Source: Herbinix sp. (GTDB lineage: Bacteria > Bacillota > Clostridia > Lachnospirales > Lachnospiraceae). From it: a DNA stretch of 64,000 nucleotides. The position numbers and the translations under genes were made by a program. Shown here in pieces: positions 40,963 to 47,193 of this stretch; positions within the stretch are counted from its first letter, which is position 1, and the number at the start of each line of letters is the position of its first letter. The notes beneath the pieces were generated by a model, which was given only the letters and a program-made list of their open reading frames with translations, had not been told where the DNA came from and ran no database searches. The stretch is from assembly GCA_028691795.1 (NCBI GenBank), contig JAQUYQ010000001.1:42699-106698 (forward strand). The letters run 5' to 3'.

Positions 40963-43013
40963 GTGTGGGATATGGAAAAATTTATCGCTCAGTTCAAAAA
41001 CGGGAATGAAGACAAAGTCAACGTTGATTTAATCACTAGAAAGAATGATGGTGATATTGTTGACTATATTGCAAATGCTTGCAAATCATTAGAAACTTTA
41101 AAGTATATCAAGTTTATTGGTTATGATGTAATTGAAGATGAGAGCAAAATCGATATTAACGATTTCATATATACCCGGAAGAAAAAGAATAAAGGAGGTA
41201 AGAAGGAAGAAGAGAAGAAATACATGTATATCACTGACAGTAGATATGCAGAGGTAATTCTCAAGTTCAAACTTACCTGTAAGAATCGAGACGATGATAA
41301 TCGAATTGTTGATGAAGTGATTCAGAAGAAGATACTTATATTAGTCCCTGATAGAGATGGTTATTATACCATCAAAGGGAAGAAGTATATCCTTCTGTAT
41401 CAACTTGTTGACAGTTCGACGTATAAGAATAAAGATCGTCTTACTCTTAAATCTTTTATGCCCATTATCATTAAACGCACAATGCAGACGTATAATGATA
41501 CTAAGGGGGCAGAATATAAAGCCCCGATATTTACTATAAATATATTCAAGAAAGAATTGGATATATTCCTTTTCTATTTCGCTAACTTTGGAGTTTTAGA
41601 AACGCTGAATTATTGGTCTGTAAATAAGATCATTCGATTTAGGTCTGAAGTTAAAGATGCAGAAAAGTATATCTATTTCGGTATCAGCTCTAAGTTGTTT
41701 ATCGAAATCGATAGACCTATGTTTGAAAAATATGCTTATGTTAGAAGCATGGTCTTTATGATACTCAATATTTGTACTAATCGTATGACTATTGAGTCAT
41801 TATATAAGAATAAAACATGGATTGAAAAAATAGGGGCTACTTGTACGACCAACATCAATAATTATTATGAGAAGGGTATGAATCGATTAACATCATTCGA
41901 TAGAATGATCGATGAAACCACTAAGAAGGTTTTAAAAATAAACCCCGATCATAAACAATCTATATTTTCCATAGTAAGGTGGATGGTTCAGAATTATGAT
42001 GAACTCCACACAAAAGATAATATGAGTTTAGTAAATAAGAGATTGAGATGTAATGAATATATCGCTTCTCTATTAACTAAAGTATTTAGTGAAAGGCTAA
42101 ACAGAATTATCTCTATGGGTGACAAAGCTACAATGAAAGAAGTAAAGCAAATATTTAAGTTTAAAGGCGATGCAATTATAACTGAGCTATATAGTGCAGG
42201 CTTGTTAAGATTTGATGACGCTATTAATGATATGGACTTATTCAATCGCCTCAAATATACTTCTAAAGGGCCAAACGCTCTGGGCTCAAAAAATGCAAAT
42301 AATATATCTACCAGATATAGAGGAATTCATCCTTCATATTTAGGAAGAATAGATATTAACGTCTGTGGTGAACATGTTGCCACCGTTTCTTTAATTGCGG
42401 GGATGAGGAAGTGACGCCCCTATCTGAGATTAACTTCTTGGATGCCTAAGAGCCTTATATACTAAACTTATATAGCGATGTATAGGTGGCCATATCTAAT
42501 CAGTATGGGCATAGTAAAAAGTATAAGGATATATGGTCAATCCGCAGCCAAGTGACTCTTAACAGAGTTAAAGGTTCAACGACTATCAGCTTATAAGCTG
42601 TTAGAATTCAAGTGAATTCGAAATGGGAAACCTCAATATTTATATTGGGAAGATATAGTCTGGTATCCTATAGAAATATAGGGAAGTTCATAAGAGAACT
42701 GCGTAGATTAACGACCTACGTGAACACAACGAGTTCAGATCCAGGAGCTAGTGGAGTACTAACTCCGATGTGTCATACGGATGGTTTATATTTCTATGAC
42801 CAAGATGAACCAGAAGGATTTAAGGATAGTTTCGACGATATTATGTCTGAGTATATCAAATCTAATGAAGATTGGATTGAGATAGAAACAGATAATCTTA
42901 CTAAAGAAGATATCATGAAACTATTAGGAGTTATTAAGAATCATGAGACTCCTATGGAAGTGCAAATGTTTGATGACTCTAAAGTTATGGTAATTAAACA
43001 ACAAGAAGAATGA
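40963..43013 (+). CDS. DNA-directed RNA polymerase beta subunit, N-terminal portion, interrupted by a group I intron: exon 1 40963..42390, exon 2 42732..43013
   Basis: TRYRGIHPSYLGRIDINVCG then, after intron removal, SDPGASGVLTPMC corresponds to the rpoB R.IHPshyGRicPi.tpeG.n.G block; exons rejoin in frame. Confidence 0.8.
42391..42731 (+). ncRNA. Group I intron (ORF-less, about 341 nt) in the RNAP beta gene
   Basis: P1 uuucu/gggga; core blocks shared with the intron at 18853-19315; excision restores the rpoB frame. Confidence 0.85.
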
Positions 43014-45814: not shown

Positions 45815-45886
45815 AATTTAATTTATAATACAACTATATATTATTGAAGAGTAATAACAATAATTTATTAAAAGGAGATTGAAATT

Positions 45887-46561
45887 ATGACTACTGAAAC
45901 TATGAACATCCGCGCAGCTATCAAGGAAAAGAACATTCTCGATAAGAGAATCGAGAAGCTTGCTGGCGAGATTGAGTTTCTGGTTGTATACCAGAAGGAC
46001 GACCCGATTATCGGCCTTAAAACTCCCGAAGATTCCGCGAAGAAAATCGAATCCAATTGGCAGGCGTTGAATGACATGATTGTTCGCCGCGAGGCTATCA
46101 ATCGCACCATTCTCGATGCCAACATGACCAATAAGGTCAAGGTTCCTCGCTATGTTGATTTTATCAACGTTGCTGTCTCTGAAGAGACTGAGGAAATTTC
46201 CTTGGCCAATGCTATCAATCGGAAGAACTATTATTCTGCGTTCCTCAAGAGCAAAATTGAGAGATTGGCAAGAGTTCTTTCGAATGAATCCAAACAGGCG
46301 GCTGATTTCAAGAAAAGTGTGGCTAAGCAAATTCTTGAGCAGGTTGATCGCCGGTTTGCTGGCCTGACCAACTATTCCCAGACCAACAAGGCTCAGGTCC
46401 AGGAAGATCTCGAGAAGAAGTATGAGGTCGTGGTACTTAATCCTCTGGGTGCAGAAGATCGCTTGCCCAAGATTGCTGAGGTAATCGAAAATTACATTCA
46501 GACGATCGACAACAAGCTGTCGTCTGCTACCGAGACCACGCTTCTTACAATCACCTATTAA
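45887..46561 (+). CDS. Hypothetical protein (224 aa), GC-rich codons
   Basis: SD aaggagat. Confidence 0.65.
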   Translation: MTTETMNIRAAIKEKNILDKRIEKLAGEIEFLVVYQKDDPIIGLKTPEDSAKKIESNWQALNDMIVRREAINRTILDANMTNKVKVPRYVDFINVAVSEETEEISLANAINRKNYYSAFLKSKIERLARVLSNESKQAADFKKSVAKQILEQVDRRFAGLTNYSQTNKAQVQEDLEKKYEVVVLNPLGAEDRLPKIAEVIENYIQTIDNKLSSATETTLLTITY

Positions 46562-46568
46562 GTTGTAC

Positions 46569-47089
46569 TATTGCTAGTATAGCGAAAAACCAATTAATGT
46601 TCAACATGAGATTTTTCGGGTTAATTTTTACTCATGTAAATAAATTAAAAATAAATCCACCTTAATATTAATGAAGCTCTGTAATGCTAATACAGAATGC
46701 TTCTTATCCGATGGTGTAACGGTAGACACGCCGGCCTAATCCGCTGGTTTAGGGTAATGCCTAAAATGAGGGTTCGAGTCCCTCTCGGAAAAGAACAAGA
46801 TTGAGGGCCCCGTACACAAGGGGTTAAGAGTGTTGACTCTTTGTGTACGGGGCCCTACAATGGAAGAGATAATATATTATAATTTAATGACTTATCTTTT
46901 AATTTATTAATTGATTTCCATGAATAATTCATGGCTTATTAATTTATCTTCCATTAATTTATTAAGGTATACGGAACTCTAATTGAGTTCTTCCTAAAGC
47001 TAATGCCTAATTTGGTATGAAATCTTAGGATAAAGTTTATACGATTGGACACGGTTTTGGTTTGCTGCTAAGCTGCTATACTAGCAATA
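46569..47089 (+). ncRNA. Large structured non-coding RNA candidate (ROOL/GOLLD-like or novel)
   Basis: 15-bp terminal pairing tattgctagtatagc (46569-46583) with gctatactagcaata (47075-47089); dense internal stems; no ORF with SD; followed by an intrinsic terminator. Confidence 0.7.
46705..46792 (+). tRNA. Class II tRNA-like fold (Leu-like body, odd anticodon loop CTAATCC) embedded in the ncRNA
   Basis: Acceptor tatccga/tcggaaa (one mismatch), D arm gtgt-aacggtag-acac, anticodon arm ccggc-ctaatcc-gctgg, long variable arm tttagg/cctaaa, T arm gaggg-ttcgagt-ccctc. Confidence 0.6.
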
Positions 47090-47094
47090 TACAT

Positions 47095-47135
47095 AAATAA
47101 GACGACAGATTAATTTCTGTCGTCTTATTTTTTTG
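47095..47135 (+). terminator. Intrinsic terminator of the ncRNA
   Basis: aaataagacgacaga-ttaatt-tctgtcgtcttattt plus T-run. Confidence 0.85.
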
Positions 47136-47193
47136 TCTTAAATCTTATTTTGGTGATAACTTTATAATAAGAAATTTAGAGTGAGGTGTTTAT

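Follow-up and report, generated by a model that had tools for sequence, protein, structure and literature searches.

Genomic setting of the locus

The DNA analysed here (the window) is a stretch of 64 kb that corresponds to positions 42699-106698 of a 213-kb contig within a Clostridia MAG, probably of Lachnospiraceae. Judged by its sequence, the contig is a PBS1/AR9-like giant phage; the nearest relatives of its B-family DNA polymerase are PBS1/AR9, and the phage also encodes gyrase A and B and an Rpb2-like RNA polymerase subunit. A related phage was found within a sheep Lachnospiraceae MAG. Four good tRNAs and one tmRNA are located at other places on the phage contig, the tmRNA (L103:12222-12609, tag ANTFKPVGVAA) being flanked by tRNA-Met and tRNA-Asn. 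The tRNA/tmRNA cluster also holds a second, larger structured stretch of about 1.4 kb that is GC-rich (L103:10270-11700, G000:C8:156270-157700) and contains repeated CGG-UCCUUUAAG-CCG hairpins as well as two copies of about 80 nt that match RAGATH-36 at 37 bits, under the cut-off; the sheep phage shares this two-copy layout (G299:C1:97773-97908 and 99681-99792). Right 3' of the tRNA-Asn lies an element of about 105 nt (L103:12810-12914) with a 9-bp closing stem (GTTTTAAGT/ACTTAAAAC), and three group I introns are present on the contig (window 18822-19266, window 42325-42683 and L098:1737-2153).

The locus of interest consists of a protein gene and a structured RNA on the same (forward) strand, with an SbcC gene on the other side of the RNA. 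The gene (45887-46561), which had been overlooked in the original prediction for this DNA, codes for a 224-aa protein of PHROG_1491 (E 4.5e-21), and only 7 nt separate its stop codon from the closing stem (P1) of the RNA. Upstream of the gene, the motif TATATATTAT (45835-45844, forward strand) contains the 9-mer TATATATTA, which is present upstream of 19 of the 99 genes of the phage as compared to 2.2 expected; a promoter role of this motif is inferred. Neither a promoter-like motif nor a terminator was found between the gene and the RNA. The unit is closed by an intrinsic terminator (47095-47136, forward strand) with a 15-bp stem, the loop TTAATT and a T run, which confirms the predicted strong terminator (47095-47130 plus the T run). 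TTAATT hairpin loops are over-used by this phage (7 of 105 strong hairpins on G000:C8, many of them terminators).

The function of the partner protein could not be read from databases. Pfam gave nothing above the cut-off, PADLOC was silent, and NCBIfam yielded nothing convincing apart from a weak DIP1984 hint (E 0.013). The AlphaFold model is mostly helical (pLDDT 77), and structure comparison found no PDB relative, only phage proteins of uncharacterised function. The distant homologues share 20-27% identity with it, the value being 20-26% for homologues followed by the RNA. The label 'tail fiber' of PHROG_1491 is doubtful; we found no support for it, and the family is probably mislabelled.

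Structure of the RNA

The RNA is closed by the perfect 15-bp pairing that had been noticed at first inspection, between 46569-46583 and 47075-47089 (forward strand); counting the G-U pair 46584/47074 the stem comprises 16 bp, and 491 nt separate its arms. When the 628-nt gap between the genes was subjected to 3000 dinucleotide shuffles, a stem of 15 bp appeared in one of them and a stem of the same length and GC content in none. No ORF of at least 50 aa is present within 46562-47189, in line with the earlier remark on some 520 nt without an SD-led ORF. The segment 46562-47089 folds with -182.1 kcal/mol (z -10.4 against shuffles); z amounts to -13.8 for 46569-47089 and to -9.8 for the interior of P1, where it remains at -5.5 without the GC-rich hairpin and at -5.0 without this hairpin and the tRNA-like domain, as compared to -2.3 and -3.2 for coding controls. 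With a descriptor of P1 plus terminator, the window RNA was the sole non-coding match in the loci scanned with it, relatives included.

P1 is followed by the junction GAAAAACC (46584-46591, forward strand), which corresponds to a GAA(AA)C found after P1 in the family described below. The variable domain contains a long GC-rich hairpin (46804-46856, forward strand), which was correctly located but underestimated with 16 bp: its arms (46804-46827/46833-46856) are 24 nt long and 88% complementary. Towards the 3' end, a second conserved helix, P2, is formed by CUUAG (47024-47028), located after GAAAU, and CUAAG (47068-47072), which precedes CU and the 3' strand of P1 (P1'); both strands are on the forward strand. 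A previously suggested helix tcctaa/ttagga (46992-46997/47025-47030) competes with P2, which is backed by covariation, and is doubtful, and a suggested acatgag/ctcatgt hairpin is possible but missing from the minimum-energy fold. The window RNA is without a close relative, so that helices other than P1, P2 and the 3' domain lack covariation support.

UAAU is present in 5 of the 11 short hairpin loops of the RNA, a frequency that no 4-mer reached in 600 shuffles. A role of these loops as sponge or kissing loops was considered and set aside, because TTAATT loops are common among the terminators of this phage. The self-complementary UAAUU loops are compatible with a homo-oligomeric cage but are not evidence for one.

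A degenerate tRNA-like domain

A tRNA-like fold had been proposed within the RNA, and it is real, though degenerate: ARAGORN and the Rfam tRNA model (37.3 bits) both detect it at 46704-46793 on the forward strand. It features an A.A mismatch and an odd anticodon loop (CUAAUCC) and lacks a CCA end, whereas the genuine tRNAs of the phage score 68-71 bits and have CCA encoded. Our criteria for a tRNA gene, namely a sound acceptor stem, CCA or a processing signal and a plausible anticodon loop, are not met, and the domain is probably not translationally active. By our reading its closest resemblance may be to tRNA-Leu, for which blastn gives only weak support.

Homologous loci and covariation

When the RNA itself served as query, no relative was retrieved, neither by blastn against phages and plasmids nor in 299 genomes of the bacterial family; pattern searches in IMG/VR returned one chance coding match, and a single-sequence covariance model (R1) returned nothing. 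Synteny with the SbcC neighbour was rejected as a guide, since in relatives it ended at tRNA clusters or at intergenic stretches without this RNA, and the structured islands of the related sheep phage proved to be largely small ORFs with strong terminators. Related phages have further structured intergenic stretches, in several cases closed by a long stem, at L043:9578-9921, L001:13783-14275, L093:3786-4126 and L019:6649-7000; homology to the window RNA has not been shown for them.

Homologues were reached via the upstream protein. Distant homologues are present in four other genomes and one phage; a tRNA follows the gene in each of the four genomes, and in one of them there is in addition a closing stem of 12 bp and a terminator. 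A PHROG_1491 search added further loci in the bacterial family, tblastn added phages of Brevibacillus, Pseudomonas and Clostridioides (carriers include Brevibacillus phage Jenst, Clostridioides phage phiCDIF1296T and Pseudomonas phage REC), and IMG/VR contributed 72 loci. An anchored P1, with GAA on the 5' side and GCT on the 3' side, was detected downstream of the gene in 53 of 75 distinct loci at a score of at least 22; the window RNA, anchored by TATTGCTAGTATAGC followed by GAAAAACC and by GCTAAGCT followed by GCTATACTAGCAATA, scores 35. The scan found no clean anchored P1 in about 22 of the 75 loci, mainly in Pseudomonas-type phages. The common layout, shared by dozens of unrelated phages, is the gene, P1, GAA(AA)C, a variable domain (frequently with a tRNA inside), AAAUCC and the 3' end, with a total RNA size of 270-520 nt. 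The last bases of AAAUCC begin P2, and about 45-50 nt later P2', CU, P1' and often a terminator follow, which gives the core P1-GAA(AA)C ... AAAUCC-P2 ... P2'-CU-P1'.

Both helices of the core covary. In P1, 98.1% of the cells are paired over 45 distinct sequences, as compared to 61% on average and 67% at maximum when partners were swapped (500 trials), and almost every position shows at least three standard pair types. The P1 positions come from a search that rewards pairing, a bias that the swapped-partner control answers only in part. P2 was detected in 51 of 53 family members versus 153 of 834 combinations with the strand of another phage; its 15 sequence versions are paired without exception and include CCUUG/CAAGG, CCAUG/CAUGG, CCACG/CGUGG and CCCAG/CUGGG, while CUUAG/CUAAG is unique to the window. 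A terminal stem that did not covary among homologues would have refuted the original prediction; P1 passed this test strongly. Together with the fold and shuffle statistics this bears out a large structured phage ncRNA with a terminal stem. The same data bear on the possibility that P1 merely resembles an RNA stem and represents the 15-bp terminal inverted repeats of a MITE. Such an element would account for the perfect inverted repeat with TAC at both ends, but it exists in one copy in its genome and in none of the 299 family genomes, and the P1 sequence varies between phages while the pairing is preserved and the inner junctions are conserved. We have rejected the MITE reading, to which we give next to no credence, as it is contradicted by the compensatory changes.

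The tRNA is not part of the core. About 10 of 13 same-family loci have a tRNA domain inside the RNA; L172, L174 and L175 have none and nevertheless keep the core, and the quality of the tRNAs inserted in relatives varies between good and degenerate, with no tRNA at all in some. We read the tRNA-like domain as a putative guest of the variable domain, by analogy to the linkers reported for GOLLD (PMC12286853). It is also conceivable that RNA and protein form a decoy that baits tRNA-cutting nucleases or tRNA-sensing defences of the host, an idea suggested by the phage setting and by tRNA-like domains in the variable part, of which that of the window is degenerate. Since the three loci without a tRNA show it to be optional, and since PADLOC did not respond to the protein, we consider such a bait quite improbable.

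Detection of the gene-RNA pair from the RNA side

For the 3' domain, a covariance model was built from 41 loci, with the window left out. Its sole match in the 64 kb of the window is 47014-47086 on the forward strand (28.3 bits, E 2.9e-5; E 0.0013 at the scale of the whole 3-Mb assembly). On related jumbo-phage records the model gave four new matches in three records (G300, G310 and G321), and the upstream regions of the best three of these four were checked. At two of the three, the RNA is directly preceded by a PHROG_1491-type gene (E 1e-63 and 2e-35); one of these two loci also shows P2 and a P1 of 15 pairs. At the remaining locus, in G310, P1 (11 pairs, one of them G-U) and P2 are present, and the upstream ORF was not detectable as a PHROG_1491 homologue. 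With the protein gene present at two of three loci found by their RNA, the linkage of gene and RNA also holds from the RNA side. We regard it as nearly certain that the window encodes a real structured RNA that belongs to a PHROG_1491-linked family.

In the G321 jumbo phage the 3' domain occurs twice, at a distance of 18 kb (G321:C1:271752-271821 and 253756-253825). In the G310 jumbo phage (L119-L132), about 30 copies of an intergenic repeat with the arms TTTTGTTAAGT/ACTTAACAAAA, 57 nt apart, are present.

Linkage could also reflect regulation in cis. The RNA would then be a structured 3' UTR of the gene at 45887 that protects the mRNA or sets the dose of the protein, for example by binding of the protein to its own 3' UTR, and no free RNA would be made. 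The short distance of 7 nt between stop codon and P1, without a terminator or a promoter-like motif between them, and the linkage across phages would both be expected in this case. However, it would be uncommon for a plain 3' UTR to be 270-520 nt long, to hold a tRNA insert in many members and to have a closed architecture with two ends; that RNase P normally cleaves such tRNA inserts also counts against this reading. A purely cis-acting element is unlikely to our mind, though it has to be kept in view.

Proposed function

The conserved core, its covariation and its linkage to the protein gene are observed; the following is our interpretation. We favour, with some reservation, that the RNA is one half of a two-part phage cassette, the other half being the PHROG_1491 protein of about 200-230 aa, and it seems to us similarly plausible, in the absence of binding data, that both act together as an RNP. 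Gene and RNA, with the motif at 45835 in front of them and the terminator (47095-47136) behind, would form one unit and would probably be read as a single transcript, an inference made without transcript data. P1 would close the RNA, which may be used as such or may be excised at P1, the stem serving for release or for stabilisation. The core, comprising P1, the GAAAA junction and AAAUC-P2 ... P2'-CU with its junction, is most likely bound by the neighbouring protein, an inference that rests on the strong linkage of gene and RNA. The remainder would be a variable scaffold that accommodates a tRNA in many relatives and the degenerate tRNA-Leu-like domain here. We assume that the particle probably acts in trans on translation or on the tRNA pool during infection; this choice of target is inferred, and it is a tentative suggestion that may well prove wrong.

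Should this interpretation apply generally, PHROG_1491 and its downstream RNA would be a widespread, undescribed phage RNP machine with tRNAs or their mimics as cargo or bait. Its distribution would comprise Firmicutes phages and prophages and, as judged by homology of the protein, phages of Pseudomonas and others, and it would have been seen earlier only as the fragments RAGATH-27, skipping-rope and the 'tail fiber' family. We consider this reading in all its parts evenly balanced between right and wrong. It is likewise as likely as not that no description of the protein-RNA pair itself exists. Full RNA boundaries and a search model are now available, as are two covarying helices (P1 and P2) and phages with named hosts; these phages permit genetic tests of the long-standing question of the role of large phage RNAs with embedded tRNAs.

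Comparison with known RNAs

Membership of the RNA in the ornate ROOL or GOLLD classes, suggested by comparable size, terminal stem, phage context and tRNA association (PMC12286853), can practically be dismissed. ROOL resembles the window RNA in length, phage hosts and tRNA islands (PMC12286853), and GOLLD is likewise a large phage RNA near tRNAs, with a tRNA at times in its linker (PMC12286853). Neither ROOL (RF03087) nor GOLLD (RF02032), nor RAGATH-27 or skipping-rope, matches the window RNA at E up to 10, and cmscan at the same limit gave only the tRNA and chance matches. The conserved core differs from that of ROOL and GOLLD, and the linked protein gene is a feature of the window RNA. ROOL and GOLLD were also absent from the own genome and from 39 related genomes and phage records (37 viral contigs). 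The ROOL search works, as ROOL was detected in 4 of 250 same-family genomes (E below 1e-70); no positive control rang for the GOLLD scan of the related records. The predicted likeness to both is thus an analogy only, and the accompanying hedge that the RNA could be a new class came nearest to the truth.

YrlA and Y RNAs have a terminal stem and are bound by Ro60-type proteins as their partners, and YrlA also contains a tRNA-like module. PHROG_1491 does not resemble a Ro protein (helical, no PDB match) and the window RNA is far larger, so that the possible parallel is a lead and not a test.

Closer relations are found among two short Rfam motifs, which match the 5' ends of 6 of 37 family loci scanned. 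In Brevibacillus phage Jenst, the 80-nt skipping-rope model (RF02924) has a match (L192:2125-2202, 67.6 bits) right 3' of the homologue; our scan detected no anchored P1 there, and the equivalence therefore rests on position only. Shortly 3' of the Jenst cassette, a BsrG-type RNA is matched with 119 bits (L192:2660-2934). RAGATH-27 (RF03100) occupies the same position, right 3' of a PHROG_1491 homologue, in Dulem virus 39, L215, L225, L239 and L245; the model is a fragment that spans 86 nt at the 5' end of this kind of RNA and lacks the 3' domain, and its description names no partner protein. We found no paper that ties either motif to the protein, the original motif paper not being covered by our search. 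Rfam covers only fragments of the family and misses the window RNA, and with the present results two orphan Rfam fragments and an orphan phage protein family gain a common context and a testable partnership.
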